Shown here piece after piece: positions 8,450 to 31,929 of a DNA stretch of 31,929 bases. The stretch spans positions 1 to 31,929 of IMG/VR virus record IMGVR_UViG_3300035660_000054, one strand, 5' to 3'. The stretch is from a virus. How positions within the stretch are numbered: position 1 is the first letter of the stretch; every line of letters begins with the position of its first letter. Under the pieces are notes generated by a model, which searched no databases, was not told where the DNA came from, and worked only from the letters and a program-made list of their open reading frames with translations. Both the position numbers and the translations under genes were made by a program.

Positions 8450-8606
8450 GCACGACCGCGCGAGGAAGGCGGTCCTGGAGATCTTTTTCGTGACCACACG
8501 TCCAACCATCTCCCCCGCACGTGACCTCCAGGTCGATCGACACCTGACACTCGCCGTGCGGGATCCGGAGGAATACCACCACCAGGAACGCGATGAGCCA
8601 CGTCAC
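8439..8606 (-). CDS. 55-aa small membrane or exported peptide
   Basis: A GTG at 8606 overlaps the TGA of the DNA polymerase gene (GTGA), the usual arrangement for coupled translation. The product is 55 residues. It starts MTWLIAFLVVVFLRIPHGEC, a short hydrophobic helix followed by a polar tail with Cys at 20, 30 and 37. Topology could be a signal anchor or a signal peptide. No family is recognised. The stop overlaps the candidate promoter of the next gene. Without this frame the 200 bases between polymerase and the dnaQ-like gene would be empty. Only geometry and composition support it. Confidence 0.4.
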   Translation of the reverse strand: MTWLIAFLVVVFLRIPHGECQVSIDLEVTCGGDGWTCGHEKDLQDRLPRAVVLAK

Positions 8607-11569
8607 GACGCCGTCTCCGCGATCTCCTTGATCGCCTCGCGCTCGGCCCGCTCTTCTTCATCCTCACGCAGGTCGTTGAGGGACTCCTCGTCAAGCTCCG
8701 CAAGGAACTCTTCGTCCTGCGTGAGAACCTTGGGCGGGTTCTTCTTGATGTAGTCCGCCAAAGCGATCGTCTCGCCGTAGTTCGGACCCACGCTGACGTC
8801 GTGCGCGAAGTCCACTGGCAGCCAGGGGAACTTCTCACGCACACGCTTGACGCAGTAGTAGTCGAAGAACGCCTGGGCCTCCCCGAGATGCTTCTTCTTG
8901 ATGGTGCCCACGATCGAGTCGTGGACCGTGATGCAGCACCGGCCGCCGAGCTGGCCGATGTTCTCGAAGATCTCGACGAGCTGCGCCACCACGATGTCCG
9001 AAGACGTCGACTGGATCTTCATGTTCTTGCCGCGACGTTCCGCCTGGCCACGGAAGAACCCGTTGACCGTCTGCAGCGGGAACCGCCGGCGCCGCCCGAA
9101 CAAGGTCTCGACGAACCCCTTGTTCTTGATCTGCGCGACGACCTCATCCATGTAGCTCACCAAGGACGGGAAGCGCAGGAAGAGCTTGTCGATGACGGCC
9201 TGCGCGGCCTCTTCCGAGATGCCCGCGGTCTCCGCGATCTTGCGTGCCATGGCTCCGTAGAGGATGCCGAACACGACACGCTTCACGGTGGTGCGCGTCT
9301 TGGACATCTCGTCGTCGATGTCCTTCTTGGCCTCGACCTCCTCGTACGGGATGCCGAAGATCTCCTGCGTGAACCAGCTGTGCACGTCGAGGCCGCTGTT
9401 GAGGGCGTCGATGAGCGCCTTGTCGGGCGCGTATGCCGTGAACACGCGAATCTCGGCACCCTTCCAGTCGACGTTGAAGATCACTTCCTCCTCGGGGTCG
9501 TCCGGGATGAAGATCTTCTTGATGTTGACGCCGGCCAGCTTCTTGGGCTGATTCTGCATGTTCACATTCGATGAGGACAAACGCCCTGTCGACGTGCCGT
9601 GCAAGTGGAAGCTCGTGTGCAAGAAGCCGTCGTACTCCGACAACATCTTGATGTCGTGCACGAAGCCGGTGAGGGCCTTGTGCGCAGCACGGTACTCGAG
9701 CAACGCCTTTGAGAAGATACACTTCTTGCGTTCAACGAACGCCTTGAGCATCTTCTTGTCGGTCTTGTTCTTCTGGGACTTCTTGTTCTTCTCGATCCAG
9801 AGGTCGTCGTGTGGTTGACGTGTTCCGTCCGCCTGTGGAACGCCGTAGTTGTAGAGGATGTGTGCGATGTCTGATGTCGAGTTGGGATTGAACTCGATTC
9901 CAGCCTTCTTCTTTTCGGGATCCCACATCCCGAGAAGAACGTTCTTCTTCTCCTCAACAATCTTGCCCAGGTCGATCTCAAGCTTCTCGATGTAGGGCCT
10001 ATCAACACGGAAACCGTGGAACTCCATGTTCCCAAGCACACGTGACGCAGGCACGCAATGTGACGTCATCAGTGCGCGTGCGTTCTGATGGAACCCTTCC
10101 TGTTGCATGCGCGCAAACTGGTGACGCAGAAGACGCCGTGTCAGGTCTGTGTCAACCGCGGCATAGATGAGCAAGGTGTCTAGCGCGACACGCTCATAGC
10201 CTTCGTCGAAGACACGCTTCTTGCGGTCCTTCTTCGTTCCGAACAAGTAGGCCTCGAGTTCCTTCTTGCTCAGCTCCATCGTGAGGCCGTCTTCGATGCC
10301 CTCGATGCCCTTCTTCGGCTTGCCCTTGCGTGCCTTGATGAGCACGGTCCGCACGCCTTCCTCTTCAGGTGTGAGCTGCTCCGCCAGCTCCTGGACCTTG
10401 TCCGCGTAGTTGCCGAACATCGGGAAGTAGCTACGGCCCAGTGTCTTGAGGCCGTACGAGCCCGTCATGTCTTCACGCAGGAGGTGCTCGCCGAGCATCG
10501 AATCCCACGCGACGTTGTTGACGCGCCAGCCGTGACGCAGCTCGAGGAACTTCAAATCGAACTTGGCGTTGTGGAAGACCTTGGGCTTGGGGCACTCGAG
10601 CACACGCTTGACGTGCCCAATAACGTCCGCCAGCTCTTCCGGGTTCCAGGGCGCTTCACGATGAAACAACGGGATCGCGGTCGCGCAGCCAGTGTCCCAG
10701 GCGAACGACACACACAGGACCTTCGCGTCCTGTCGATGCGGGTTGACCGTGTTGGTCTCGGTATCCACTGCGATCGCGCATTGCGCGGCGTTCTTCGCGC
10801 CGGTCACAACGTGATCGATGATCGTGTCGCACACCTCCTTGACCTCGGCGACGGTCGTCGGGATGCGGTAGTCCTTGGTGACCTCTTCGAGCGTCGCGTT
10901 CGAACCAGCCTCGTCAATGCCGCCCGCGATTCGAGCAGCGCGAACAACGTCGGCATAGAACAGGTTGTAGAGGCCAGTCTTCGCGCCGACGTGCTTGGTC
11001 GAGAAGGTCGGGAGCACCTTGTAGGTCTCGCCGTCGATGTCGAGGGTGAGGAGGCGTCCGCGCGCATCCATGAAGCCGCCCGTGTAGCCCATCGCCTTGA
11101 GCGCCGTTGCACCAAACGCGACCACGATCTTGGGCTTGCGGTTCTTCAGCTCGGCACGCAGATAGTTGGCGCACTGCCGAATCGTCGCCGCGCTCGCGGT
11201 CGCGTTCTGATCACGGCCCTCTTCAACCTGGCACTTGACCGCGTACGTATCCCACTTGTTCAACGCGCCGATCTTGAGGTGCCCGCCCGTGCGCGCGTCC
11301 AGTTCCTTCAGCTCCTTCCAGATCGTGCGCAGAATGCGCCCGTTGCGCCCGTAGAAGATTTGCTGGTTGTTGGTCGACCAGGACGACGGGGACTCGGACA
11401 CGAACATGATGTCGACGTGTCCTCGATACCCTTCACCAAGTACGCACCCCTTCTCGTACAGGTCGCAACCCTTGCAGTTGAGCCCTTTGATTTGCTTGTC
11501 TTGAGCGTCCGGATTCAGCGACGGGTCATCTGCTGAAATCACCGGAAGCTTGACCTTCTTCGTGGCCAT
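8603..11569 (-). CDS. DNA polymerase, family A, with N-terminal UDG-like and 3'-5' exonuclease domains
   Basis: The start is ATG 11569, just after a strong GGAGGAGA site; a longer open frame upstream is not needed. The 988-aa product has three parts. Residues 1-220 resemble family 4/5 uracil-DNA glycosylases: C32, C35, C113 and C133 sit where the iron-sulphur cysteines fall, but the usual GEAPG motif reads SESPS and the HPS motif reads TKHV, so glycosylase activity is doubtful. Next is a DEDD exonuclease with D269 and E271 (DTET) and FHNAKFDLKFL. The C-terminal PolA domain has motif A DWKGAEIR (D701), motif B K-R-V-V-F-G-I-L-Y-G and motif C HDS (H883, D884). It is the replicative polymerase, encoded directly after the primase-ATPase. 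Confidence 0.93.
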   Translation of the reverse strand: MATKKVKLPVISADDPSLNPDAQDKQIKGLNCKGCDLYEKGCVLGEGYRGHVDIMFVSESPSSWSTNNQQIFYGRNGRILRTIWKELKELDARTGGHLKIGALNKWDTYAVKCQVEEGRDQNATASAATIRQCANYLRAELKNRKPKIVVAFGATALKAMGYTGGFMDARGRLLTLDIDGETYKVLPTFSTKHVGAKTGLYNLFYADVVRAARIAGGIDEAGSNATLEEVTKDYRIPTTVAEVKEVCDTIIDHVVTGAKNAAQCAIAVDTETNTVNPHRQDAKVLCVSFAWDTGCATAIPLFHREAPWNPEELADVIGHVKRVLECPKPKVFHNAKFDLKFLELRHGWRVNNVAWDSMLGEHLLREDMTGSYGLKTLGRSYFPMFGNYADKVQELAEQLTPEEEGVRTVLIKARKGKPKKGIEGIEDGLTMELSKKELEAYLFGTKKDRKKRVFDEGYERVALDTLLIYAAVDTDLTRRLLRHQFARMQQEGFHQNARALMTSHCVPASRVLGNMEFHGFRVDRPYIEKLEIDLGKIVEEKKNVLLGMWDPEKKKAGIEFNPNSTSDIAHILYNYGVPQADGTRQPHDDLWIEKNKKSQKNKTDKKMLKAFVERKKCIFSKALLEYRAAHKALTGFVHDIKMLSEYDGFLHTSFHLHGTSTGRLSSSNVNMQNQPKKLAGVNIKKIFIPDDPEEEVIFNVDWKGAEIRVFTAYAPDKALIDALNSGLDVHSWFTQEIFGIPYEEVEAKKDIDDEMSKTRTTVKRVVFGILYGAMARKIAETAGISEEAAQAVIDKLFLRFPSLVSYMDEVVAQIKNKGFVETLFGRRRRFPLQTVNGFFRGQAERRGKNMKIQSTSSDIVVAQLVEIFENIGQLGGRCCITVHDSIVGTIKKKHLGEAQAFFDYYCVKRVREKFPWLPVDFAHDVSVGPNYGETIALADYIKKNPPKVLTQDEEFLAELDEESLNDLREDEEERAEREAIKEIAETAS

Positions 11570-11604
11570 TACATCTCCTCCGGTGTTGGCGCCATAAACA
11601 TACT

Positions 11605-14600
11605 CTACACGATGATGTCGTCGTCGTCCGTACCGCTGCCAATGACCTGCGGCGTCTCGGTGTCCACCTTGACCTCGGGATCGGTCGGGGCAGTCGTCTT
11701 GGCCATGACCTCCTCGCGCCGCGCCCGCGTGGCGTCGAGCAGGTGCTTGATGGAGAACACGGAGATCAGCTCGAGAGGCTGACACGGCCCCATCACATCT
11801 ACGAGACGTTCGAGCACGCGGGCTCGCTTCACCTCGTCGTTGCTGATGTGATGCGGCGAGCGCTCCGACACCTGCTTGAGGAACGTCGGGGTCTCCGTGC
11901 GGTAGCGTGTCTGTGCGAGCAAGCCCTGCGACGCCTCGACCCAGTTCACGACCAACCACTCCTGCTTGACGTCGAGGTAGACGCCCTTCTTGGTCTTGTT
12001 GATGTCGTCGAGCTTGTTGAGGTCACCGAGCATCACGCGGATGGTCGTCATACCGGACATCTGGTCCTGCGTGCCCACCGACGCGGTCTGGATCGCCGAG
12101 CCCAGGATGGTCTCGAAGATCTGCTCGTTCTCGGACGTTGTCTTGAGGCGCGCGAGCTGCTCACGCCGGGACTCGGCGAAGTCGTAGGCGAACGTGCGGT
12201 AGTCCGGGATCGGATTCGCACCGCCGCGCGCCTTCGCCAGCTCGTCGAGCAGCTTGAGCATGGCCATCTCAGGGAACATCGCTTCACGGAACCGCGAGGT
12301 CGCGTGCGCGGGGAGCTTGTTGCCGGACACGTACTCCTGCTCGATCGCGCTTTGGTACGCCCGCAAGGTCGCCATGTGCGGCAGAAGCCCGACCACCATA
12401 TCGTGGCGGGTCTTCGAGATCAGGTGGTCGCCGAACTTGCCGGTGAGCGCCAGCACCGGGTCCTTGTGGTTCGCGTCCTTGACCAGCTCGAATTGCACGA
12501 AACGCGACAACGACGCGGCGTCACGCAGAGGACGAATGGCGCAAGCCACGAGCGGGAAGCGAAGGTGGTAGGTGCGGCTCTCGCCCGTCGTCGTTCCGAT
12601 CGACCAGTTGACCGCGGACTCTCCGATCAAGTCACGGCACAGCTCGAGGACCTTGCGCACCATGATCGACTTGGCGTCGTTGCCGCCATAGTCCTCGAAC
12701 TCCTCGAGACAGAGCGTGAGGCTCGAGTTGTTGCGCTGTTGGCGGATGGACGCCGCCGTGTAGCCCTGCATCGTCAGCGCATGCGCCACGATGTTGATGC
12801 GAGACGCGCTGCCTCCACCGACAAACCCTGCGGTGAACTTGCTCTTGCCGGACTCGTGCTCGGCGTTGAGGATGACGGCGGTCTGACGTGTGAACACCGA
12901 CATCATCGCCAGGCACATGACGTAGGCCGTCAAGAACGTGCAGTCGAGCTGCTGATAGCGGAACGCCCAGCCCGTCTCGATCATGTCCTTGACGCGCACG
13001 AACAGGTCGACGAGATCGACGTTCGCGGTGAGGTCCTGCGCATCGACGATGGTCTTGATCCAGGGCTCGCCTGAGTTGTCGAAGATCACGCCCTCGTGAC
13101 GAGGACCGTCGAGGGGTGTCGCCGTGAAGTTCGCCCCGTCGTGCAGCAGGCAATACACGTCACGGCCGTTCACCAAGTAAGAGCGCATGTGCCCCTCCGT
13201 GGATTCCATCATGTGAATGCCTTGGCTCTTGATCGGGGCGTGGTCCATCGAAGGTAAGTCCTTTGCCATCATGAGGAGTGCGAAGTTCAGGTACTCGCGA
13301 TACTTCTTCGCTTTCATCGTGATGTTGAACTGAGCAACCTCAGGATCGTCACCAACAATGAAAGGAGGGTCACCAACCGTGTCTGCGATGAAGTCATAGA
13401 TGGGACCGTAATGCCGAGAGATGAGGGTCTCTGCACTGCGTTCGTCATTCAGGATGACCGTGTCTGTCGTACGGCTGGCCTTGTTCCAGAGCGACAAGAT
13501 GCGCTTGCGCCCTTCGCCGTTTTGAATACCCACCGGGTGGTACTTGTCGAGCAACGTCCGATAGAGGCGCTTCACGAACTCTTCTTCATTGTCGTTCTTG
13601 ACGAGAATGTCCCGCCGAAGAATCACCGCGTCGATGCCGTGGTCATTCGCAACTGCGACGCAGTACGAATTGCACACTTGCTCGTCCTTGAGGAGGAGGC
13701 CCCAACGCTTGGCGGCGTGACTGATCGCTGAAACATCCGACGTGCCTGACTTTGCAAGCTCCGCCGACAACTGGTCGTAGCACCACTCGTCCACCGCTGC
13801 GTACATCTTCTCGTCTACGACGTACCTGACCCACCGGGGGTACCCGATTTCACGGATGGCGTCATCGGGGTCTTTGATGCGCGCGTTGGGGCGTGTCGGA
13901 TCGTGCCAATCCACGTACTGCTCTGGCCAACGGAACACCCGGAAGGCGATATTCTTGTTCTTGGTGGCCTCGAGCACGTGTTTGACGAAGTTGTCTCCGC
14001 CGCCATCACGGTCCGGGATGAGCCACGCGCGGTGGATGTTCAGCGCGAGGAGACGGTCTACCGACTGCGAGCCGCCGCCGCTCAAACCCAGCGCGATGTA
14101 GTCGTCAGACTGGCGCCGGATCTGTTGCGCGATCGCACACAGGATGTCGAACTCGCCTTCGCTGCAGTGCGCGATGTGCCCCTTGTCGGGACCGTCGGCA
14201 CCGTGCTCTTCCGAGGTGAGGTACGTGCGGTAGTAGCGCAGGCCATAGAACCCGCGGAACCCGTCCATCTCCGCCTCGTACGTATCCTCGACCCACGCCT
14301 GGCTCACGCACGGCTTGGCGGGCTCCCGCAGCTTGAATCGACAGATCGACGTCGGCGTATCGTCGTATGGAAGCACGAGATGTCCGATGTACGTCTGTCC
14401 GTCGGTGTACTTCCCGAAGTAGCTGCGGAAGAACTTGTACTCCTCCGACGTCGGTCCGAAGTGGTTCTCGACATCCACGATGCGCGGGAAGATGCCGATC
14501 AGGTCGCGATCGCAAAGGGTGACCCACACCCCGAACTGGTCGAACTTGCCACTGGGTTGATCCTTCTCGGCAACCAACTCACCAGGCGCACTCTCACCGA

Positions 14601-15120
14601 GCCCACGCCCAAGCAAGTACTGCAACGTGGGCAGCGTCCAGTTCAACCCATCTGCATCGAGCGTCCCTGCCGCAAGCGACCCAAGCGCCTTGAACAAGAG
14701 CGTGCTGTAGAACTTCATCAGCGCAGCCTTGTTCTTCTGATGCACCTCGTGGTCGCGAACCTTCTCGAACAACTCCTTGGGGATCGCCGCAGAGAGCCCC
14801 CACCGCTTCTTCGCATAGATGAGCGCGTCAGCCACGCTCGTCTCGTTGAGCGCTGCGATGAGGTGGATGGGATTCCAGAACGCCTTGTGGCAGCCGAAGC
14901 AGCTCGCGCGGTTCTTGTACGGTGTAACGATGAACGACGCGGTGCCGTCAGAGTGGAAGGGGCAGCGTCCCTTGATATGGGGTCCCGATTGATGAAAGCC
15001 TGAATCGGGCTTCGCCTCGGCGAGCCAGCTCAACCAGTCGTTGTTTTGGATGTCGGTCCAAACACGGTTGAGGCGCGAGAACGCAACCTTCGAATCCCCC
15101 GTCTTTGCCTTACGAGCCAC
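11605..15120 (-). CDS. Primase with Toprim and C-terminal ATPase/helicase-like domain
   Basis: GTG 15120 is preferred over an ATG at 15171 because AAGGAG precedes it and it overlaps the upstream gene by only 11 bases. The 1171-aa product starts with a CHC2-type zinc finger (C53, H56, C74, C77). A Toprim domain has E321 in CSEGEFD and D370-x-D372 in IPDRDGGG, which bind the catalytic metals for RNA primer synthesis. Near residue 752-760 a Walker A reads NAEHESGKS (K759), and LCLEEFED is a likely Walker B, so the C-terminal half is an NTPase, probably the helicase part. It resembles other bifunctional phage primase-helicases in order but is unusually long. Its stop is 35 bases from the polymerase start, so the two are co-transcribed. 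Confidence 0.88.
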   Translation of the reverse strand: MARKAKTGDSKVAFSRLNRVWTDIQNNDWLSWLAEAKPDSGFHQSGPHIKGRCPFHSDGTASFIVTPYKNRASCFGCHKAFWNPIHLIAALNETSVADALIYAKKRWGLSAAIPKELFEKVRDHEVHQKNKAALMKFYSTLLFKALGSLAAGTLDADGLNWTLPTLQYLLGRGLGESAPGELVAEKDQPSGKFDQFGVWVTLCDRDLIGIFPRIVDVENHFGPTSEEYKFFRSYFGKYTDGQTYIGHLVLPYDDTPTSICRFKLREPAKPCVSQAWVEDTYEAEMDGFRGFYGLRYYRTYLTSEEHGADGPDKGHIAHCSEGEFDILCAIAQQIRRQSDDYIALGLSGGGSQSVDRLLALNIHRAWLIPDRDGGGDNFVKHVLEATKNKNIAFRVFRWPEQYVDWHDPTRPNARIKDPDDAIREIGYPRWVRYVVDEKMYAAVDEWCYDQLSAELAKSGTSDVSAISHAAKRWGLLLKDEQVCNSYCVAVANDHGIDAVILRRDILVKNDNEEEFVKRLYRTLLDKYHPVGIQNGEGRKRILSLWNKASRTTDTVILNDERSAETLISRHYGPIYDFIADTVGDPPFIVGDDPEVAQFNITMKAKKYREYLNFALLMMAKDLPSMDHAPIKSQGIHMMESTEGHMRSYLVNGRDVYCLLHDGANFTATPLDGPRHEGVIFDNSGEPWIKTIVDAQDLTANVDLVDLFVRVKDMIETGWAFRYQQLDCTFLTAYVMCLAMMSVFTRQTAVILNAEHESGKSKFTAGFVGGGSASRINIVAHALTMQGYTAASIRQQRNNSSLTLCLEEFEDYGGNDAKSIMVRKVLELCRDLIGESAVNWSIGTTTGESRTYHLRFPLVACAIRPLRDAASLSRFVQFELVKDANHKDPVLALTGKFGDHLISKTRHDMVVGLLPHMATLRAYQSAIEQEYVSGNKLPAHATSRFREAMFPEMAMLKLLDELAKARGGANPIPDYRTFAYDFAESRREQLARLKTTSENEQIFETILGSAIQTASVGTQDQMSGMTTIRVMLGDLNKLDDINKTKKGVYLDVKQEWLVVNWVEASQGLLAQTRYRTETPTFLKQVSERSPHHISNDEVKRARVLERLVDVMGPCQPLELISVFSIKHLLDATRARREEVMAKTTAPTDPEVKVDTETPQVIGSGTDDDDIIV

Positions 15121-15952
15121 CGAACTTCTCCTTGAACTCGGGACAGGTGTCCTGGTACTGGCACCAGCCACACGGCCAGCCCGGCTGGTTGTTCTTCTTC
15201 ATGCGCGAACGTGCAGGACGCGCCACGTAGGGCTCGACCAGATTCTGAGCGACCGTGTTGATCCGCGAGAACAGCCACGGGGTGTAGGCCGCGCGAATCC
15301 GATCGGCAGGGATGTACGTCGTCCACTGGATGCGCAGGTCGTCGGGCCCTTGCATGAAATGGATGCCGCCGCGCACGCCCGCGATGTCCGGCATGTTGGG
15401 CAGCGCCAGTACACCGTACGCTTGCAGCTGCTGCCGCTTTTTTTGATCGTCCTCGAGCCGCTTGGCGACGCCCGACTTGTGATCGATCAGGTAGAGATCG
15501 TCATCGCGCGTGAGCGCACCGAGGTCGAGCTTGCCGCGGAAGAACACGTTGTCACCGAAGAACGCCGCCGGCTTGTATGCGTCGGTGAAGCCCCAGTCAG
15601 CCTCGACGAACACCTTCTTGACGCCCTGAGCTTTGCAGAACGTATCGAAGCGCCGGAGGAAGTCCTCCATGTTCTCGTCGAGCAGCTGCAACATCTCGCG
15701 CTCGTTGGTCGTGAGCGGCGTCTTCTCGGACGCTTCCTTGTGTGCGTGCTCCGCGGGCTTGCCCAAGATGCGATGTTCGAGCACGGCATGCGCCACGATG
15801 CCGACCTTGGTGTCCGACGGCGCAGGCGCAGCGGCCGTCTTGAGTACGTGCTTGTGGCGGAACTGTGCGGGACAGGTCTCAGCCACTTCCATCTTGGAGA
15901 AGGACCAGGGGGCGAACTTTCGGGCAAGGTCGGAGATCTCGAGAGCTGCCAC
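15110..15952 (-). CDS. RecB/Cas4-like PD-(D/E)XK nuclease (first copy)
   Basis: GTG 15952 fits the AGGGGTGA site best; another GTG two codons upstream (15958) is possible. The 280-aa product has the layout of Cas4/AddB-type nucleases. It shows a lone Cys early (C27 in ETCPAQF), GIVAHAVLEH with H55, GKLDL with D143, and IDHKSG with D157 and K159. It ends with CGWCQYQDTC (C261, C264, C270). The four Cys would hold an iron-sulphur cluster in that family. It likely trims or cuts DNA ends in replication-linked recombination. It lies just before the primase-ATPase with an 11-base overlap. A second nuclease of the same type is encoded at 20585-21499. Confidence 0.85.
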   Translation of the reverse strand: MAALEISDLARKFAPWSFSKMEVAETCPAQFRHKHVLKTAAAPAPSDTKVGIVAHAVLEHRILGKPAEHAHKEASEKTPLTTNEREMLQLLDENMEDFLRRFDTFCKAQGVKKVFVEADWGFTDAYKPAAFFGDNVFFRGKLDLGALTRDDDLYLIDHKSGVAKRLEDDQKKRQQLQAYGVLALPNMPDIAGVRGGIHFMQGPDDLRIQWTTYIPADRIRAAYTPWLFSRINTVAQNLVEPYVARPARSRMKKNNQPGWPCGWCQYQDTCPEFKEKFGGS

Positions 15953-16137: not shown

Positions 16138-17178
16138 TCACATCGGCTTGTTCGACGATCGCGCGCCCTTCGTGGGCGACGTCGGCTTCGCCGGCTCGGT
16201 CGGCGTGCTCAGGTCGGGCTCGGGACCACCGTCCGCGAGCGCGGCATCGAGCGCACCGCCCGCGAACTGCCCCTCTGCTTCGATCGCCGCCGAAGGCGCA
16301 CGCGCGGGCCGCGCGTACCAGTCCGCGAGGAACATCTTGCGCCCCGCGACGTACATGCCGTAGAGCGCCTCGGCGAGACGCATCACGTGCTCGGGGTTGT
16401 CCTTGCCCGTGGGCTCGACCTTCGCGATGTAGTAGAGGCCGAGATCGCCCGTCTTCTTCTCGGTGTTCAGCAGGTAGCTCTGACGCCAGAGCGACGTCTG
16501 CTGACCCGCGAGCGAGAGCAGCGCAGACCCCGCCTTGCGCGACGTCTTGCCGAACTGCACCATGTACACGCCGGGGTTCGTCAGATCGGTCGACATGACG
16601 ATGGCGACGATGTTGTTCTGGCAGTTCGTCTTCTGCTGGTCGCCACGGCCGCCGTTCTGCTTGCCAAACGGCAGGTGCGGGCACTTCAAGCACTCACCGT
16701 ACGGCGAGCCGAGCTTGGCGTCGGGCGCCTGGCACTCCGGATTCTTCCCGTTCGTCGGGAAGTTGATGTTCTCTTCGAAGATGTAGAGCAGGATCATCGA
16801 GAACGGACGCTCGAGAAGCTGCCCCGCCGAGGTGTAGAGGTCACCGTTCTTGGCGGCCTCGGGCTTGTTGTCCGACTGCGACGTCGGCTGCACGATGCTG
16901 ATGCGCGGCACCTTCCAGGCCGCGACCATCTCCTCCATGCCGGGCTTGGAGGGCGAGGCGAGTGCCGCGAGAGTGCGGACCGCCTGACGCGCCACGTCGG
17001 GCATCGTCGTATCGTCGGCGAGAGCGCTCAACGCCTCGCGCCGCTGGACGACAACAGCCTCGAGATCGGCCGGGTTCATTGCAGCGGCAACGGCCCCCAT
17101 CGAGGGCTTCGCAACCAGGGCCTTGGCAGGGATGATCTTGGTGGAGTTATCAGGGGTTCCGTTGGTGGGCTCGGTCAT
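16138..17178 (-). CDS. Unknown phage protein with a cysteine cluster (346 aa)
   Basis: ATG 17178 follows AAAGGA and is chosen over an in-frame ATG at 17289 that would add a poor N-terminus. The product starts MTEPTNGTPDNSTKIIPAKA. In the middle is a cluster reading PEC, then GECLKCPHLPFGK, then TNCQNN, which could bind zinc. The C-terminus is Ala/Pro-rich and low in complexity. No family is recognised. Its position upstream of the nuclease, primase and polymerase genes suggests a replication or recombination accessory role; a single-strand DNA-binding protein is one guess that the sequence alone does not prove. A candidate promoter is at 17213-17242. Confidence 0.75.
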   Translation of the reverse strand: MTEPTNGTPDNSTKIIPAKALVAKPSMGAVAAAMNPADLEAVVVQRREALSALADDTTMPDVARQAVRTLAALASPSKPGMEEMVAAWKVPRISIVQPTSQSDNKPEAAKNGDLYTSAGQLLERPFSMILLYIFEENINFPTNGKNPECQAPDAKLGSPYGECLKCPHLPFGKQNGGRGDQQKTNCQNNIVAIVMSTDLTNPGVYMVQFGKTSRKAGSALLSLAGQQTSLWRQSYLLNTEKKTGDLGLYYIAKVEPTGKDNPEHVMRLAEALYGMYVAGRKMFLADWYARPARAPSAAIEAEGQFAGGALDAALADGGPEPDLSTPTEPAKPTSPTKGARSSNKPM

Positions 17179-17212
17179 GTCATGTCCTTTGGAATGTGGA
17201 AAGTGGAGGGCC

Positions 17213-17242
17213 ACTCTAGGGATTTTGATGTTTGTTTGGCAA
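17213..17242 (-). promoter_or_regulatory. Candidate sigma-70-type promoter for the 17178 gene
   Basis: On the minus strand TTGCCA (17237-17242) and TAGAGT (17213-17218) are 18 bases apart. The -35 side carries TGCTTGCCAAACAAAC, nearly identical to the element before the dnaQ-like gene. The predicted start leaves a leader of about 27 bases with AAAGGA. Activity is inferred. Confidence 0.45.
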
Positions 17243-17274
17243 GCATGTCGTGCAGAAAATCGACGCACTATTCC

Positions 17275-17301
17275 TGGGGTGCGAAACAAAATCGCACCCT
17301 A
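17275..17301. promoter_or_regulatory. Perfect inverted repeat in the divergent region before the sigma gene
   Basis: GGGTGCGA and TCGCACCC form an 8-pair perfect stem around the loop AACAAAA; one GT and one TA pair extend it to 10. There is no T run on either side, so it is unlikely to be a terminator. It lies in the 225-base spacer between the 17178 gene and the sigma factor gene, so an operator or RNA hairpin in the sigma leader is plausible. Confidence 0.55.
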
Positions 17302-17403
17302 CAAATTCGCTGGTGTACGTCCCGGGATCGACACCCAACAGGTAGCGCACGATCGTCGAACTATTTGATCACTGGTCGTGGGCTTGGTAGGTTGTCCGTG
17401 AAC

Positions 17404-18195
17404 ATGGTGACCCCCACGGCACGTACCGCCTCTATGTACTACGCAGAGGTTGCACGCATGCCCCTGGTGGATGACCCCACCGAAGAGCGTCGTTTACTTC
17501 GGCGGTGGCAGCAGCAGGGAGACGTGCAAGCGCGCAACGCCATCGTGCAAACGCACCTTCGCTTCGTGGTCAAGCAGGCCCACAAACGGAGCAAGGACCC
17601 CGAGGCCGTCAAGGACTTCATCGCGGCAGGCAACCTCGGACTCCTCAAGGCCACCGACAAGTTCGACTGGGCCCGCAAGCCGTACATCCGTTTCCTGACG
17701 TACGCCGGCTGGTGGGTCTATGAGGAGATGTCGAACCAGGACTACACGACGGCAACGCTCGTCCATGTCCCGGCACATCGACAGAAGGCACAGCGACGCA
17801 ACGCACGTGAGTTCCGCGCTGCGATGCAGGAGCACGGTCCCGAGAACGCCGGCGTTCAAGCCATGAACCCTGGCCGGTCCGAGAGCATCGTCGTATCCAT
17901 CGAGGCCGCGCGCCACACCGCTGACGTCATGGAAGCCGAGCCGACGTCTTCCTACGGGTCCGATCGACTCCGGGCGCTCGTGCGCGAGGGCATCGGGCGT
18001 CTGCCTCCTCGAGAGCAGACCGTGCTCAACCTCTTCTACGGCGTCAAGGACGACGCGCGGAACCTGATCCAGATCGCCTCCATCATGGGCATCTGCCCCG
18101 AGCGTGTTCGTCAGATCAAGCTCAACGGCATGCAGCTCCTGCACACCGAGCTGAAGCAGCGCGTCGGCCTGTCGACCGAAGACGCGTACCTCTAG
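17404..18195 (+). CDS. Sigma-70 family RNA polymerase sigma factor
   Basis: ATG 17404 is used; a GTG two codons upstream (17398) is closer to a weak TAGG site and is possible. The 263-aa protein has region 1.2 (SMYYAEVARMPLVDDPTEE, 10-28) and region 2 (46-110) with NAIVQTHLRFVVKQA, AAGNLGLLKATDKFD and FLTYAGWWVYEEM, the -10-binding and melting helices. VHVPAHR follows at 120-126. Region 4 (196-250) has LPPREQTVLNLFYGV and a helix-turn-helix ending PERVRQIKLNGMQLL, which would contact -35 DNA. It should direct a polymerase to phage promoters: either the host enzyme or the phage enzyme encoded from 26120. It is isolated on the plus strand, and its stop overlaps the convergent gene by 4 bases (CTAG). 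Confidence 0.92.
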   Translation: MVTPTARTASMYYAEVARMPLVDDPTEERRLLRRWQQQGDVQARNAIVQTHLRFVVKQAHKRSKDPEAVKDFIAAGNLGLLKATDKFDWARKPYIRFLTYAGWWVYEEMSNQDYTTATLVHVPAHRQKAQRRNAREFRAAMQEHGPENAGVQAMNPGRSESIVVSIEAARHTADVMEAEPTSSYGSDRLRALVREGIGRLPPREQTVLNLFYGVKDDARNLIQIASIMGICPERVRQIKLNGMQLLHTELKQRVGLSTEDAYL

Positions 18196-23901: not shown

Positions 23902-25710
23902 ATGGCCGATGATGGAATGTTTGACCCGGGTATCGCCGATCTGACGACGCGGAACTCCGCTTCGCAGGGCAGCCCACTGTTCGACTTCCTCACGGCGTTC
24001 GCGCCAAGGAAGCTCAAGGACCTCTTCCGCCTGTGCGAGTACCTCTACTTCAACAGCGCGCAGATCTACGCGGCGCTCCAGAAGTTCTGCACGTACCCCG
24101 TCACGGACATCACCTACGAAACGCAGAATGAAGCGCTCAAGGAGTACTACGAGGACCTGCACAACAAGACGCTCAAGACCAAGCGCATCTTGATTCGAGC
24201 GGCTGTCGACAAGTTCGTCTACGGCAATGCGTTCTTCTCGATGTACGCACCGTTCGTACGCTTCTTGAAGTGCCCGCGCTGCTCTGTGCTGTCGAACATT
24301 CAACAAGTCACCTACAAGTTCAAGCTCAAGAAGCTCGCCTTCAACTACGTCTGCAAGGGCTGCAACACGCGCGTGGACGCGGGTGCGAAAGATGTCGTCG
24401 ACCGCAAGATCACGCGCAAGGACCGCATCTCGGTGATCCGCTGGGACTCGAAGCTGATGGACATCGACTACAACCCCATCACCGGACACAGCGAGTACTA
24501 CTACACGATCCCCAAGGAGATTAAGGAACGGTGCGCCAAGGGGAACAAGCACCTCATCGACACGATGCCGATGGAGTTCTTGCAGGCGATCCGCGAGGAC
24601 AAGATCTTCAAGTTCGCGGAGGGCCAGGTCTTCCACATGCGTATGGACGCGCCCGCGGGCATCGAGGCCCAATGGGGCTTCCCGCCACTCGCGTCGACGA
24701 TCAAGCTGTTCTTCTACGCGGCCGTCCTCCGCAAGGCGAACGAAGCGATCGCGCTCGACTACATCGTCCCGCTCCGCATCGTTTCGCCGAAGCAGTCGTC
24801 AGCGAACGCTGACCCGATGACGACGATCTCCCTGTCCAAGTGGACCTCGGAGATGAAGAGCAGCGTCAAGAAGTGGCGCCGCGACCCGCTCCACATCATG
24901 TGGTCGCCGGTGCCCGCAGAAGTCACGCACCTCGGCGGCCAAGCACGCGCTCTCATGACGCTTGGTGAAATCCAGGCGGCGGAAGACAACATCATCGCTG
25001 CGATGGGCCTGCCCAAGGAGTTCATCTACGGCGGCTTCTCAGCGATGGGCTCCGGCATCCAGCTTCGCGTCCTCGAGAACCAGCTCGTCCATCAGACAGG
25101 TGACCTCAACGACCTTCTTCAGTGGATCACGGACATGTCAGCCAAGCAGCTCGGACGCGGCACCGTGGTGGTCGCGCTCGCGCCGTTCCGTTTCATCGAT
25201 GACGTGCAGCAGAAAGCGCTGCTCCTGCAGCTCAACGGTGCGGACCCGACAACGGGCCCCTGGATCTCCAAGCGCACACTCGGCGAGGCCTTCGACGTCG
25301 ACCCCTCGGACGAGCGCAAGTGGCGCATGCAAGAGGCGCTGGACGATGCGCGCGTCGCACAAGACCTTCAAGTCGAGATGCAGAAGCGGCAGAACAACTT
25401 GGGGGCTCAGGCGCGTGCGCAAGCCCAACAAGGGCAGCAAGGGTTGGCCTACGATCAGCAGGCCGTGATCGCGCAAGCAGACCAGATGGTCCAGCAGATG
25501 ATGGGCCTCGACCCGGGGACACGCCAGTCACAGATGCACGCGCTCCAAACGGAAGACATGGTGATGTACGCCGTCGTCAAGGAACGCATGCACGACATGA
25601 CGACGCAGCAGAACCAACAGGCGGTGGCGGCAGCTCGTCAGGGCGGGGACCCGGCAGCTGCAGGTGGCGCACCGCCAAACGGGGTTCCCCCGGGCGCCGT
25701 TGGTCAGTAG
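23902..25710 (+). CDS. Portal protein
   Basis: A 602-aa protein starting at ATG 23902 behind GGGGTAAACC. It has features of phage portal proteins: an N-terminal region with repeated aromatic residues, a long helical section (LRKANEAIALDYIVPLRIVSP), a GEIQAAEDNIIAAMGLPKEF stretch typical of the crown/stem region, and a Gln/Ala-rich C-terminal tail likely exposed in the barrel. Residues 124-154 carry a zinc ribbon, CPRC (124-127) with CKGC (151-154). It forms the ring at one capsid vertex through which terminase pumps DNA. A TATCAT box sits at 23875-23880 in the 43-base divergent spacer. Confidence 0.88.
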   Translation: MADDGMFDPGIADLTTRNSASQGSPLFDFLTAFAPRKLKDLFRLCEYLYFNSAQIYAALQKFCTYPVTDITYETQNEALKEYYEDLHNKTLKTKRILIRAAVDKFVYGNAFFSMYAPFVRFLKCPRCSVLSNIQQVTYKFKLKKLAFNYVCKGCNTRVDAGAKDVVDRKITRKDRISVIRWDSKLMDIDYNPITGHSEYYYTIPKEIKERCAKGNKHLIDTMPMEFLQAIREDKIFKFAEGQVFHMRMDAPAGIEAQWGFPPLASTIKLFFYAAVLRKANEAIALDYIVPLRIVSPKQSSANADPMTTISLSKWTSEMKSSVKKWRRDPLHIMWSPVPAEVTHLGGQARALMTLGEIQAAEDNIIAAMGLPKEFIYGGFSAMGSGIQLRVLENQLVHQTGDLNDLLQWITDMSAKQLGRGTVVVALAPFRFIDDVQQKALLLQLNGADPTTGPWISKRTLGEAFDVDPSDERKWRMQEALDDARVAQDLQVEMQKRQNNLGAQARAQAQQGQQGLAYDQQAVIAQADQMVQQMMGLDPGTRQSQMHALQTEDMVMYAVVKERMHDMTTQQNQQAVAAARQGGDPAAAGGAPPNGVPPGAVGQ

Positions 25711-26119: not shown

Positions 26120-29100
26120 ATGCTGCCGAATCTACGACCCATCCTCGAGGACGCTGAAACGCGTCGGGACATGATTCGGAAAAAGGCCGTCGAAGGCCTC
26201 GAACAATCGTTCCCGCTCAAGGCGGGCAAGCACACACTCGAGCTGTCCAACGTCCGAGTGGACCCGCAGGACTACTCGTCCAAGGACCAGAAGCGTGCCG
26301 TGCTCGAAGGCAAGACCTTGTCCGAGCGCGTGCGCGGCGACCTCACCGTCAAAGATGCTGCTGGTGCCGTCGTCGATCACGCGAAGAACTTCATGTTGAT
26401 GCAGCTGCCCTACTTCACACCGCGCCACACCTTCATTGTGGACGGCACGGAGTACTCCGTCGCGAACCAGCTACGCCAGAAGCCTGGCGTGTACATCCGC
26501 CGGCGTGGCAACGAAGAACTCGAGTCGACGTTCAACCTTTCGAAAGGTGCGAATTTCCGCGTGTCGATGGACGCCGAAAAGGGCCTCCTCTACATGCAAC
26601 CGTCGCACACGACGTCGAAGATCCCTCTGCACCCCGTGCTCCGTGCGTTGGGCATGCCCCAACAAGACATCGCGCAACACTGGGGCCCGGAGATTGCGGG
26701 CATGAACCGCGACGCGTGGAAGAACCCGGACAAGCACGTCAGCAAGCTCTACGAAACGCTCGTGCACCCTTCGAAGCAGACCGCGACGACGCCCGAGGAG
26801 AAGGCGCGCGTGCTGCGCGAGTACTTCGACAACACAGCGATGGACCCTGAAGTCACCGCACACACCCTCGGCTATCCGTACGAGAAGGCGTCGCCCGCAG
26901 CGATCCTCGCCGCGTCGAAGAAACTGCTCGACGTCCACAAGGCGGCAGCGGATGTCGATGACCGTGACTCGCTCGCGTTCAAGACGTTCCACTCGGTCGA
27001 CGACTTCGTCAAGGAACGCATCGGACTCGAAGCGCGCGCGATGCGCAACAAGCTCGGGTGGAAGCTCGATGCGGCGCATGGGGACCTGAAGAAGGCGTTG
27101 CCGTCGGGGCCATTCACACGGTCCATGCAGGGCCTCCTGGTCGGGTCGTCGCTCTCCGCGGTGCCGATGCAGATCAATCCGATGGAGCTTCTCGACGAAG
27201 CGTCACGCGTCACGATGCTCGGTGAGGGCGCGATTGCATCCGAACGCGCCATTCCGCTCGAGGCCCGTGACGTTCATCCGACGCACTTCGGAATCCTCGA
27301 TCCTGCTCGTACGCCCGAAAGCTTCAAGGTCGGAGTCGACTTGCGCGCCACCATCGGTGCAAAGCGTGACGACAAGGGCAACCTCTACGCACCCGTGCGG
27401 GACGCAAAGACCGGGGTCGCGACCTACCTCAAGGCTAGCGACCTCGCCAAATCGGTGATCGCGTTTCCAGGTGAACACCTGGGTGCAGGCAAGATCGTCG
27501 ACGCGATGGCGCACGGTGTCGTATCGCGCGTGACGTCGGACAAGGTGACTCACCAACTCGAGCACGTTGCGGATCAGTATGGCCCGACATCGAACCTCCT
27601 GCCGCTGGTCTACGGCATCCAGGCGAACCGTGTGCTCATGGCCAGCAAGCACCAGGGACAAGCGCTGCCGTTGACGCATCGTGAGGCGCCGCTCGTCCAG
27701 GTTGCATCGTGGAAGCCAGGGACGTCGGTCGAACGGGAGATGGTCAAGCTGATCGTCCCGACCGCACGACAGGCCGGCACGATCACGAAGATCGATGACG
27801 ACTGGATCCACATCACGCCGCACACCGAGAAACACTCGAGCGCCCCCGACGGCTACACACTGTCGCGCTACGTGGACACTAAAGAAGGGGACACCGCACA
27901 CAACGTGATCGATCTTCACCACGAAGGTAAAAACGTTGCGTGGCTCGCGTCCCATCCAGGGACCGACGGTGACTACACTTGGGTCAAGAGCATGTACGTG
28001 GATCCTGCCCACCGCGGCAAGGGCCTCTCGCGCGTGCTACTGCAAAACGTCATCGACGATCACCCGAACGCCGAGCTGCGCCTGCGTGCGCGTCCATTCC
28101 GCGATCACCCGACCCCCGTCGACGCGCTCAAGAAACTCTACGGCGAGTTCGGCTTCAAAACGTACGACGACGAGAACCGCATGGTACGGCCGGCGAGTGC
28201 GAAACACGCGTCGGTCCTCGAGGGCACCAAGCTCCACTACGACACTGACTTCCCGCTCGCCGCCAAGACCATGCTCCACAACACGCTGACCGTGAAGGTC
28301 GGCGATCGAGTCGAGAAGGGGCAGCTGCTCGCAAGCAGCAACTTCACCAAGGACGGAACGCTCGCGCTCGGCACCAACCTGCGTGTGGCGTACATGCCGT
28401 ACCGCGGCCTCAACACCAACGACGGCATCGTCGTCTCGCAAGGTGCGGCGGACAAGCTGACCAGCGAGCACATGTACCAACACACGCTTTCGCGTGACGG
28501 TGATGCGCAGATCGATCGTGAAAAGCACCGTACGTACTTCGGCAGCCGGTACAGCAAAGACCAGTACGACAAACTGGATGAGAAGGGCGTCGTCAAGCCT
28601 GGCATGACGCTGTACAAGGGTGACCCTGTCGCAGTGGGCATTCGGGAGAACAAGGTCACGGGAGATGCGCTCTTACTCGGCAAGCTCTCCAAGTCGCTCA
28701 TCAAACCCTATGAAGAGGTGATCGAAACTTGGAACCACGATCAGCCAGGGACAGTCGTCGACGTCGCCAATACACCTAGCCATGTCGCGGCGTCGATCCG
28801 TACCCAAGAGAGGCTGCAGATCGGTGACAAGCTGTCGAACCGCTTTGGCAACAAAGGCGTCATCGCGAAGATCATCCCCGACCACCAGATGATCCAGGAC
28901 GAACACGGTCGCCCTGTCGACCTGCTGTTCACGTCGGCGGGAATCGTGTCGCGCATCAACCCGGCGCAGGTCATCGAGACAGCGCTCGGGAAGGTCGCCG
29001 AGAAGACAGGCAAGCCGATCGTCATCCCTCAGTACACGCCAGGCCGGGACAACGTCGCCTACGCTAAGGGGTTGCTCAAGGAGCACGGCCTGTCCGACAA

Positions 29101-30862
29101 AGAGACCGTCCTCGATCCGGTCACAGGCAAGAAGATCCCTGACGTGTTGGTTGGCAAGAGCTACATCTTGAAGCTCTTCAAGACCACCGACTCCAACTGG
29201 GCCGCGCATGGCGCCGAACGTTACGACTACAACCAACAGCCATCGCGCGGAGGCGACGAAGGCGCGAAGGGTATTGGTAAGATGGAATTCGACGGGCTCG
29301 TCGCGCACAACGCGCGCAACGTGCTGCGGGAAGCCGCGTCGATCAAGAGTCAGCGCAACGACGAGTTCTGGCGTGCAGTGCAACTTGGTCTACCGACACC
29401 TTCACCCAAGACACCGTTCGCGTACGACAAGCTGCAGAGCATGCTCACGGGCGCCGGCGTCAAGGTGACGAAGACGGGCTCGCGCTTGGCCCTCGGCCCA
29501 CTCACCGACAAAGACGTCATGTCGATGTCGTCTGGGGCACTCAAGGACCCGAGCAAGCTCATCCGCGCGAAGGACCTGCGTCCTGAGACGCACGGCCTGT
29601 TCGACCCAGGGATCACGGGCGGCATGGCGGGTACGAAGTGGTCCCACGTCGAGCTGCACGAACCGATCGTCAACCCCGTGTTTGAGGAACCTGTACGCCG
29701 CCTACTTGGTTTCACCCAGAAGGAATTCACGGACAACGTGGGCAAGGGCGGCCTTTGGTTCAAAGACGCGCTCGGCAAGATCAACATCGATGACAAGCTG
29801 AAGGACCTGGTCGCACGTTCGAAGAAAGCGCGAGGCCCCGAGCTGGACGGTGTGGTGAAGCAGATCAAGTACCTCGAGGCATTGAAGGACCGTGACCTCA
29901 AGCCTCAGGACGCGTACGTCATCTCGAAGGTGCCCGTGACACCTCCGGTGATTCGTCCCATCCTGCCCCTCAAGGATGGACGTCTCCAAGTCTCCGACGC
30001 GAACCTTCTCTACAAGGACGCGTTCCTCGCGAACGACCAGCTCAGGAAGTCGGCGAAGGACCTGCCATCGTCCGAGCTTCCTGCTCCTCGACAGCACCTC
30101 TACGATGCGGTGAGCGCGCTCTACGGCGTCGGTGAGCCCGTCAGCCCCAGCGCGGAGAAGCGCGGCGCGAAGGGCTACCTCGCGGCCATCACGGGCACAC
30201 GCCCAGGCAGTGGCTTCTTCCAGTCCAAACTGATGAAGCGACAACAGGACGTGAGCGGACGCGCGACAATCGCGCCAGACCCTACGTTGTCGATGGATGA
30301 GATCGGCATGCCAGAAGGCATGCTCTGGGGCATGTACAGCAAGTTCGTCATTGGGCGACTTGTGAAACGCGGCTACTCAGCCACCGACGCACAGAAGATG
30401 GTGGATGACCGTGTACCTACTGCACGTGAAGAGCTGATCAACGAATCACGTGAACGCCCTGTATTCGTCAACCGTGCTCCGTCTCTACATCGATTCAACA
30501 TCGTGGGGGCTTACCCCAAGATTATCGAGGGCAAGACCATCCGTTTGAACCCGTTCGCCGAGAAAGGTATGAACGCAGACTACGATGGTGACGCCATGCA
30601 AATCCATGCGCCGGTCACACCTGGCGGGGTCGAAGACGTCAAGAAGATGACGCTCTCGCACCTGATCTTTGCCGACAAGCGTCCTGGCGTCTTGAACATC
30701 GCGCCGGACATGGAAGGCATCCTCGGTCTCCACCGTGCGACGCAGGCACCCAGTGGCGCGAAGACCAAACACTTCGAGTCGCAAGAGGAGGCGATGGCGG
30801 CCTACCACCAAGGGGCCATCAGCCTCAACGATCCCATCGAAATCAAAGGGAAGCGCCTATAA
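26120..30862 (+). CDS. RNA polymerase beta subunit fused to N-terminal half of beta', with embedded GNAT domain
   Basis: A 1580-aa chain. The beta part (about 1-1100) shows FTPRHTFIVDGTEYSVANQL, RDVHPTHFG after the rifampicin region, LRVAYMPYRGLNTNDGIVVS, and GDKLSNRFGNKGVIAKI, the active-site lysine segment. The beta' part begins near residue 1128 (LTDKDVMSMSSGALKDPSKL) and contains PVTPPVIRPILPL, FVNRAPSLHRFNIVGAYP and NADYDGDAM with catalytic D1487, D1489 and D1491. It stops at residue 1580, about 90 residues later, so the trigger loop and C-terminal half are absent; they probably resume at 31798. The N-terminal beta' zinc module is missing. Residues about 570-695 are a GNAT-like insert. 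It would transcribe DNA with a sigma or phage-specific factor. Confidence 0.93.
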   Translation: MLPNLRPILEDAETRRDMIRKKAVEGLEQSFPLKAGKHTLELSNVRVDPQDYSSKDQKRAVLEGKTLSERVRGDLTVKDAAGAVVDHAKNFMLMQLPYFTPRHTFIVDGTEYSVANQLRQKPGVYIRRRGNEELESTFNLSKGANFRVSMDAEKGLLYMQPSHTTSKIPLHPVLRALGMPQQDIAQHWGPEIAGMNRDAWKNPDKHVSKLYETLVHPSKQTATTPEEKARVLREYFDNTAMDPEVTAHTLGYPYEKASPAAILAASKKLLDVHKAAADVDDRDSLAFKTFHSVDDFVKERIGLEARAMRNKLGWKLDAAHGDLKKALPSGPFTRSMQGLLVGSSLSAVPMQINPMELLDEASRVTMLGEGAIASERAIPLEARDVHPTHFGILDPARTPESFKVGVDLRATIGAKRDDKGNLYAPVRDAKTGVATYLKASDLAKSVIAFPGEHLGAGKIVDAMAHGVVSRVTSDKVTHQLEHVADQYGPTSNLLPLVYGIQANRVLMASKHQGQALPLTHREAPLVQVASWKPGTSVEREMVKLIVPTARQAGTITKIDDDWIHITPHTEKHSSAPDGYTLSRYVDTKEGDTAHNVIDLHHEGKNVAWLASHPGTDGDYTWVKSMYVDPAHRGKGLSRVLLQNVIDDHPNAELRLRARPFRDHPTPVDALKKLYGEFGFKTYDDENRMVRPASAKHASVLEGTKLHYDTDFPLAAKTMLHNTLTVKVGDRVEKGQLLASSNFTKDGTLALGTNLRVAYMPYRGLNTNDGIVVSQGAADKLTSEHMYQHTLSRDGDAQIDREKHRTYFGSRYSKDQYDKLDEKGVVKPGMTLYKGDPVAVGIRENKVTGDALLLGKLSKSLIKPYEEVIETWNHDQPGTVVDVANTPSHVAASIRTQERLQIGDKLSNRFGNKGVIAKIIPDHQMIQDEHGRPVDLLFTSAGIVSRINPAQVIETALGKVAEKTGKPIVIPQYTPGRDNVAYAKGLLKEHGLSDKETVLDPVTGKKIPDVLVGKSYILKLFKTTDSNWAAHGAERYDYNQQPSRGGDEGAKGIGKMEFDGLVAHNARNVLREAASIKSQRNDEFWRAVQLGLPTPSPKTPFAYDKLQSMLTGAGVKVTKTGSRLALGPLTDKDVMSMSSGALKDPSKLIRAKDLRPETHGLFDPGITGGMAGTKWSHVELHEPIVNPVFEEPVRRLLGFTQKEFTDNVGKGGLWFKDALGKINIDDKLKDLVARSKKARGPELDGVVKQIKYLEALKDRDLKPQDAYVISKVPVTPPVIRPILPLKDGRLQVSDANLLYKDAFLANDQLRKSAKDLPSSELPAPRQHLYDAVSALYGVGEPVSPSAEKRGAKGYLAAITGTRPGSGFFQSKLMKRQQDVSGRATIAPDPTLSMDEIGMPEGMLWGMYSKFVIGRLVKRGYSATDAQKMVDDRVPTAREELINESRERPVFVNRAPSLHRFNIVGAYPKIIEGKTIRLNPFAEKGMNADYDGDAMQIHAPVTPGGVEDVKKMTLSHLIFADKRPGVLNIAPDMEGILGLHRATQAPSGAKTKHFESQEEAMAAYHQGAISLNDPIEIKGKRL
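27829..28207 (+). other. GNAT-like domain inserted in the beta sequence, flanked by 7-base direct repeat
   Basis: Codons about 570-696 encode a fold with VKSMYVDPAHRGKGLSRVLL: the RGKG at 632-635 is the acetyl-CoA motif A of GNAT acetyltransferases, followed by LKKLYGEFGFK, the usual final strand. It interrupts beta between DDWIHITPH and the conserved TDFPLAAKTMLHN segment. GAAACAC occurs at 27829-27835 and again at 28201-28207, exactly 372 bases (124 codons) apart and in frame. Confidence 0.8.
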
Positions 30863-31335: not shown

Positions 31336-31790
31336 TGCTCGAGCAATACGTGAACCAGGGACGTGTCGATGCGTTGACGCGCTTCAAGATCGCAGCGCCA
31401 CCCACCGTAATCCCGGTGCCTCCGTTGCACGTCCCGTCTCCGCTGCCCGCTGCAGCTGCCGCAGCGGGACCTGGATTCCTGTCCAAAGCCAAAGACTTCG
31501 GCGCAGGCCAGTGGGGTGCGATGAAGGACCTCGCGGCAAACGTGCGCGGCGGCATGGGCGGCAAGATGAACCCGGGCGTCATCACAGGGGACGTTCCTGC
31601 AGGCAGCATGGACATGGCGCGTGCATCACAGCGCGGTGCTGCAGTCGGCAATCTGAAGACCCTTGCACCAACGCTGCTCGCGGGTGGCGGTCTCTACATG
31701 CTGCACCGGCACAACGAAGCGAAGAAAGAGGAAGAGGCTCGACGACACGCGATGATGAACCAAGGAATGCCGATGCAGGGCGGATACTGA
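31335..31790 (+). CDS. Unknown small phage protein, Ala/Pro-rich (151 aa)
   Basis: ATG 31335 overlaps the stop of the previous gene. The product starts MLEQYVNQGRVDALTRFKIA, has a Pro/Ala-rich stretch to residue 50, a Gly-rich middle, then a hydrophobic run APTLLAGGGLYML that may be a membrane segment, and a charged tail. The ALTRF motif near its N-terminus resembles ALERF in the preceding protein. No family is recognised. Confidence 0.72.
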   Translation: MLEQYVNQGRVDALTRFKIAAPPTVIPVPPLHVPSPLPAAAAAAGPGFLSKAKDFGAGQWGAMKDLAANVRGGMGGKMNPGVITGDVPAGSMDMARASQRGAAVGNLKTLAPTLLAGGGLYMLHRHNEAKKEEEARRHAMMNQGMPMQGGY

Positions 31791-31797
31791 CGTTCCA

Positions 31798-31929
31798 ATG
31801 GCGACCACGCTCGGACAGCACCTCGTCGACTCCATCCTCCCATCGAAGTGGCGAGGACAGGGGGCGCTCACCAAGGGGAACCTGAACAAGGTCCTCCTCG
31901 GTGTCGCAAAAGAGGACCCGAGCAAGTAT
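31798..31929 (+). CDS. RNA polymerase beta' C-terminal part (5' end only)
   Basis: ATG 31798 opens a frame that runs off the window after 44 codons. It starts MATTLGQHLVDSILPSKWRG and continues ALTKGNLNKVLLGVAKEDP. In bacterial beta' the segment following the region where the 26120 gene ends reads like TTVGR...ILP...N..L..., so this is where the missing half should resume. The break lies close to the rpoC1/rpoC2 split of cyanobacteria and chloroplasts. It is based on 44 residues only; the rest is outside the window. No strong ribosome binding site is visible. Confidence 0.68.
   Translation, partial: MATTLGQHLVDSILPSKWRGQGALTKGNLNKVLLGVAKEDPSKY

Follow-up and report, generated by a model that had tools for sequence, protein, structure and literature searches.

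The polymerase gene and its surroundings

The window analysed here is the whole stretch of 31,929 nucleotides at positions 1 to 31,929 of the IMG/VR virus record IMGVR_UViG_3300035660_000054. On its plus strand, a single open frame at 26120–30862 encodes a protein of 1580 amino acids without an internal stop. Pfam searches of the full-length chain located Rpb2_3 at residues 351–406, Rpb2_6 at 718–1030 (E = 9e-45), Rpb1_1 at 1235–1331 (E = 8e-9) and Rpb1_2 at 1444–1510 (E = 3e-22), each above the Pfam cut-off except Rpb1_1 (35.8 against a cut-off of 39.7). Based on this layout of Rpb2 and Rpb1 domains, the protein is the whole RNA polymerase beta subunit (residues ~1–1105) fused to the N-terminal half of beta' (~1170–1580), the chain stopping soon after the beta' active-site motif NADYDGD (residues 1485–1491; 30572–30592). 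A sequence-only reading of the same DNA had described the chain as a phage beta subunit, which was correct for the beta part but incomplete, since half of beta' is carried as well. In addition, an AlphaFold2 model of residues 1–1120 gave a mean pLDDT of 80 and was matched by Foldseek to bacterial beta chains with an E value of ~1e-66. In the beta catalytic-core motif GDKLSNRFGNKGV (residues 902–914; 28823–28861), G902, D903, K904, G910, K912 and G913 were invariant across 38 aligned chains, and judging from their sequences the catalytic motifs of this polymerase look intact.

The remainder of beta', beta'C, is encoded by a separate plus-strand gene of which only the beginning precedes the end of the window (31726–31929, the start being extrapolated from a match seen at 31798–31929); all 44 residues encoded at 31798–31929 were identical to residues 25–68 of beta'C of the related contig L005. 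The final 131 bases of the window (31798–31929) showed 99% identity to L005, next to adjoining stretches of ~77–86%, a pattern that suggests mosaic recombination. The arrangement of beta and the N-terminal half of beta' in one polypeptide, with beta'C encoded separately a few small genes downstream, was shared by relatives of the window and by Salmonella phage Arash. Among the other plus-strand genes, a portal gene (23902–25710; 29% identity to the Arash portal Gp204, E = 9e-93) adjoins the polymerase gene and places it in a late-gene context, and a gene for a sigma factor of the sigma-70 family lies at 16387–18195 (Sigma70_r2, Sigma70_r4; phrog_351); sigma-like genes were found in most of the related records. 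The window also encodes a terminase and, on the minus strand (8603–11959), a family A DNA polymerase with an N-terminal domain of the uracil-DNA-glycosylase superfamily. The window phage probably belongs with the mReC phages (Weinheimer and Aylward 2020, PMC7481178), Caudovirales that, like it, have a multisubunit polymerase whose beta and beta' can be recognised, alongside late genes of phages; the text of that paper mentions no acetyltransferase, insertion, intein or split.

The GNAT domain and its insertion boundaries

Between Rpb2_3 and Rpb2_6, and in the same frame, beta contains a GNAT domain (residues ~578–690; 27851–28189, plus strand), so that the earlier claim of an acetyltransferase-like domain lying between two conserved beta blocks held. 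In the full-length chain, PF00583 (Acetyltransf_1) matched residues 590–651 (E = 3.6e-7; 30.9 bits against a cut-off of 20.7) and PF13508 matched residues 601–680 (E = 2e-6; 28.5 bits against 27), and with the 137-residue insert by itself the E values improved to 1.5e-8 (35.4 bits) and 4.4e-8 (33.8 bits), respectively. These profile matches bore out the GNAT signature that had been recognised by eye in VKSMYVDPAHRGKGLSRVLL (residues ~621–641) and LKKLYGEFGFK (670–680). Structure prediction gave a divided result: the GNAT stretch was poorly modelled within residues 1–1120 of beta (pLDDT 26–72), because few alignment rows cover it, whereas the isolated domain (four-row alignment) was predicted with a mean pLDDT of 82 in the GNAT order of strands and helices. 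The PDB matches listed by Foldseek for the isolated domain were nearly all GNATs, including RimI, GCN5 and 4crz, at modest TM-scores of 0.47–0.61; the highest among those listed (0.61/0.67) were to chain B of 4crz, which we take to be PanZ. PanZ is a small GNAT that acts through binding to PanD. The segment is thus a real, compact GNAT domain by its predicted fold.

Within VKSMYVDPAHRGKGLSRVLL, the stretch RGKGLS (residues 632–637; 28013–28030) is a candidate for the acetyl-CoA pyrophosphate-binding motif [QR]xxGx[GA], to which its Arg and Gly conform while the final position is Ser in place of Gly or Ala. The helix LKKLYGEFGF (670–679; 28127–28156) bears Tyr674, a candidate general acid. Strand 4 of the domain has no Glu, and the compact model has no helices between strands 1 and 2. 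Because of the Ser at the end of the motif, the lack of a Glu on strand 4 and the absence from the model of the usual helices following strand 1, the acetyltransferase activity of this domain may be low, lost or altered.

The boundaries of the insertion were delineated by nucleotide alignments with four related contigs (L005, L006, L007 and L019). In relatives that are ~89% identical (L005 and L019), a linker of 10 amino acids stands in place of the GNAT; on the left the alignment extended to ~27835 (with L007), and on the right it resumed at ~28198 (with L006). The additional DNA (27836–28200) is bordered by a direct repeat GAAACAC, with copies at 27829–27835 and 28201–28207 and a period of 372 bp, corresponding to 124 codons. 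The span 27829–28207 given to the domain by the sequence-only reading was accurate, its two ends being the outer ends of this repeat pair. The pair may have been left by the insertion, or it may be a coincidence, because GAAACAC encodes Lys-His, which is frequent in the linker, and occurs four times in the window against 4.2 copies expected by chance. No foreign base composition was seen in the insert, the GC and GC3 of which match those of the gene (GC3 0.77 versus 0.79). Aligned with cyanobacterial beta, the insertion site corresponds to residues ~588–612; by this mapping of sequences, which is what places the loop on beta, and with the domain boundaries taken from PMC11515920, the insert lies within bD1, the barrel-sandwich domain specific to bacteria. 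That paper lists five insertion sites of bacterial beta, in uD2, uD3, uD4 and uD5, none of them in bD1. A second gene joined by a frameshift was rejected as an explanation, given the one open frame.

Domains at this and other sites of homologous polymerases

To place the insertion among homologous polymerases, 64 distinct chains from two IMG/VR scans and three isolate records were compared. At the site of the GNAT, 55 of them carry no domain and have linkers of ~5–45 amino acids; in three of these (L070, L071 and L102) an intein directly downstream of the site is all that lengthens the measured gap. The other nine chains carry a domain there. Four have GNATs, which are of two kinds: GNAT-A in the window, L015 and L021 (the latter two 33–37% identical to that of the window), and GNAT-B in L023 (~20% identical to the window GNAT). 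Tyr674 is invariant across the three GNAT-A inserts, and the pyrophosphate-binding motif is canonical in L015 (RGQGLA), L021 (RRQGIA) and L023 (RRQGIA). An inorganic pyrophosphatase (InPase) domain, PF18823, occupies the site in L038, L068 and L094 (E values from 9e-21 to 3e-33); L088 has a ParB-like domain, so labelled by eye with a match to phrog_17560, together with an InPase; and L002 has in the same beta loop (11687–12151) the uncharacterised phrog_30942 domain with a GHSRGAD motif, which is free-standing in phiKZ-like jumbo phages such as PhiPA3 (gp373), 201phi2-1 and others. In agreement with the earlier reading, the segment is accordingly not a normal beta domain; that candidate was rejected, since most relatives are without the region and the rest hold GNATs or other unrelated domains there. 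Comparison with homologous phage polymerases, a check which the same reading had proposed, thus yielded GNATs at the same site in three further chains, and it revealed a wider pattern that the reading had missed, namely that the site is an insertion hotspot at which several types of domain recur.

On a quick tree of the chains (LG+G4, insert residues excluded, one long branch), the presence of a domain required at least five changes and that of GNAT-A at least two, all forced by strongly supported branches, and all GNATs together required three, these counts being blind to gain versus loss. Since all of its nearest relatives are without a GNAT, the window GNAT was probably gained or swapped in recently. 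These sequence comparisons indicate that the loop is a cargo site, where independent events have added, exchanged or removed different enzyme domains within the phage group; because most relatives lack the domain, the GNAT is not essential. Searches of viral contigs confirmed no relatives with the window GNAT alone as query and, with the GNAT alignment, returned nothing beyond the two already-known contigs. A search with a degenerate DNA motif gave no match, nor did any near-identical copy of the insert come to light, and the whole chain retrieved none from GTDB genomes. In other phages, the GNAT of L021 had no match and that of the window matched only distant GNATs of Chryseobacterium phages (E = 2e-4), and a PHROG scan of the GNAT segment gave only weak acetyltransferase matches.

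A second hotspot in beta was located at window residue ~222–228. SET domains were found there in L071 (8640–9797) and L103 (8619–9428), with PF00856 above its cut-off, and that of L103 retains NHS..PN and GEEL..DY; L071 additionally showed a match to a HAD-type phosphatase just under the cut-off. HxS/HxT motifs resembling those of 2H phosphoesterases, assigned by eye, were seen at this hotspot in L069, L071, L100, L103 and L106.

The polymerase gene also harbours five intein-like sites, and splicing or LAGLIDADG profiles matched in L070, L016 and L053. Intein-like inserts were observed at ~373 (L101 and L106), ~400 (L005, L009, L094, L097 and L103), ~716 (L070, L071 and L102), ~905 (L016, L064, L080, L093 and L100) and ~1490, within the NADYDGD region (L046, L053, L092 and L097). 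An intein was rejected as the identity of the window insert, as inteins occupy these other sites and bear Hint or LAGLIDADG signs. Other interruptions and fusions were also noted: in Vibrio phage D181 (L031, 7983–13497), a stretch that contains a homing endonuclease gene interrupts the beta gene and splits the annotated CDS, and in L052 a gene between beta/beta'N and beta'C (13929–15836) encodes a ligase-like protein with a C-terminal GNAT, the beta of this contig being itself without one.

Proposed role of the inserted domain

A link to the virion is provided by Salmonella phage Arash, in the virions of which beta (Gp206) had the highest spectral count (3516), with 1210 for beta'C and 467 for sigma; its authors allow for carry-over of abundant intracellular enzymes into the virion preparation (PMC10585845). 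Gp206 is ~36% identical to the window protein over the chain and has no insert, and the gene order of portal, small gene and beta is common to both phages. By this analogy, the polymerase of the window phage is probably packaged in the virion, and because its Arash homologue is abundant in virions, the window GNAT would ride on the packaged polymerase.

Several known systems resemble this arrangement in part. GNAT, InPase and ParB-like domains are all listed among those of polyvalent proteins of phages and conjugative elements, which are thought to act at an early stage, having been injected (Iyer et al. 2017, PMC5512222). The polyvalent GNATs published there form two families. The window polymerase and its homologues carry domains of these three types at one site, and in both cases a presumably injected protein bears effector-type domains. 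The single-subunit virion RNA polymerase of the N4 type, fused to peptidase and ADP-ribosyltransferase domains, is such a polyvalent protein (PMC5512222). It likewise joins a protein-modifying enzyme to a virion polymerase, but with its domains placed along a giant chain, whereas the GNAT is nested in one of the catalytic subunits of a multisubunit polymerase of the cellular type. The virion polymerases of phiKZ/AR9 jumbo phages (PMC7598289) are packaged and multisubunit, and the AR9 type has an HD domain fused to the C-terminal beta piece; in contrast to the window, the fusion is terminal, the domain is another one, and beta and beta' are split differently. Precedents for the host polymerase as a target are T4 Alt (PMC5512222) and Rac of the phiKMV group (PMC7552054). 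The latter, also a phage-encoded GNAT, affects host transcription in that it mediates the cleavage of the alpha subunit of the host RNA polymerase, but it is free-standing, outside any polymerase.

Taking these analogies together, we lean towards a role in which the packaged and injected polymerase delivers a GNAT that acetylates host proteins, the loop serving as a swappable cargo site. The polymerase would enter the cell with the DNA and transcribe early genes, and the attached GNAT, being carried on it, would be present from time zero. Early in infection it may then acetylate the host RNA polymerase, other proteins that serve transcription, translation or defence, or proteins of the phage, in a manner akin to that thought for polyvalent proteins, T4 Alt and Rac.

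The sequence-only reading had named the host polymerase, the sigma factor and the phage enzyme itself as possible targets. A rather unlikely alternative is that the GNAT works in cis, acetylating the phage's own polymerase or sigma factor or tuning transcription to the supply of acetyl-CoA. Its covalent attachment to the polymerase and the sigma gene in the same window are compatible with this, and the InPase at the same site has an obvious cis role in clearing the pyrophosphate of transcription (proposed in PMC5512222). However, no single cis role is common to the GNAT, InPase and ParB-like domains and the SET and 2H-like domains of the second site, and most close relatives carry no domain. 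We also regard as unlikely a GNAT without catalytic function whose role is to bind acetyl-CoA or a partner protein. The compact modelled fold without substrate-binding helices, the top listed TM-scores to the presumed PanZ, the Ser ending the motif and the missing Glu all point that way, but the three GNAT-A inserts, although only 33–37% identical, all retain the Arg and Gly of the pyrophosphate motif as well as the Tyr of helix 4, and L015, L021 and L023 have canonical motifs.

The domains might instead be tolerated passengers, dropped by recombination into a permissive loop and then drifting away without function. Their occurrence in no more than nine of the 64 chains, their absence from near relatives and the short direct repeat at the edges agree with this reading, which we nevertheless judge very unlikely: every insert is in frame and recognisable, the SET motifs of L103 and the acidic motif of the InPase inserts are retained, and the domains are enriched in known phage-effector enzymes rather than being random sequence. 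An assembly chimera in the metagenome contig, with which the failure to find a near-identical copy would accord, is scarcely credible in view of an insert that is in frame at both ends, flanked by homologous sequence and matched to the gene in GC and GC3; three other contigs, moreover, carry GNATs at this position.

The delivery of a host-directed GNAT by an injected polymerase may form part of a broader picture, which we put forward tentatively, at a little short of an even chance. The multisubunit polymerases of this phage group would be modular injected effector platforms, with at least two cargo hotspots in beta (the bD1 loop at ~570–700 and the lobe at ~222) that repeatedly swap acetyltransferase, SET lysine-methyltransferase-like, pyrophosphatase, ParB-like and 2H-phosphoesterase-like domains, and the window GNAT, on entering the cell, would acetylate host proteins of transcription or defence.

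Few known proteins are as constrained as the core subunits of RNA polymerase. In bacteria, the lineage-specific insertions of beta (BEAN/HABAS) also lie between conserved beta blocks, but in the part of PMC11515920 considered here they are reported mostly as one non-enzymatic domain type (BEAN) at five sites in uD2–uD5, whereas the window insert falls by alignment in bD1 and the domains of its site are varied enzymes. In the open-licence literature we found no report of a GNAT in a core subunit of a multisubunit RNA polymerase, and none is mentioned in the portions considered of the jumbo-phage surveys and of the beta-insertion survey. If the proposed role is true, a cellular-type polymerase can act as a delivery chassis for a protein-modifying enzyme, the idea of polyvalent proteins would extend from single-subunit to multisubunit virion polymerases, and the sequence of one loop would point to new candidate enzymes of host takeover.
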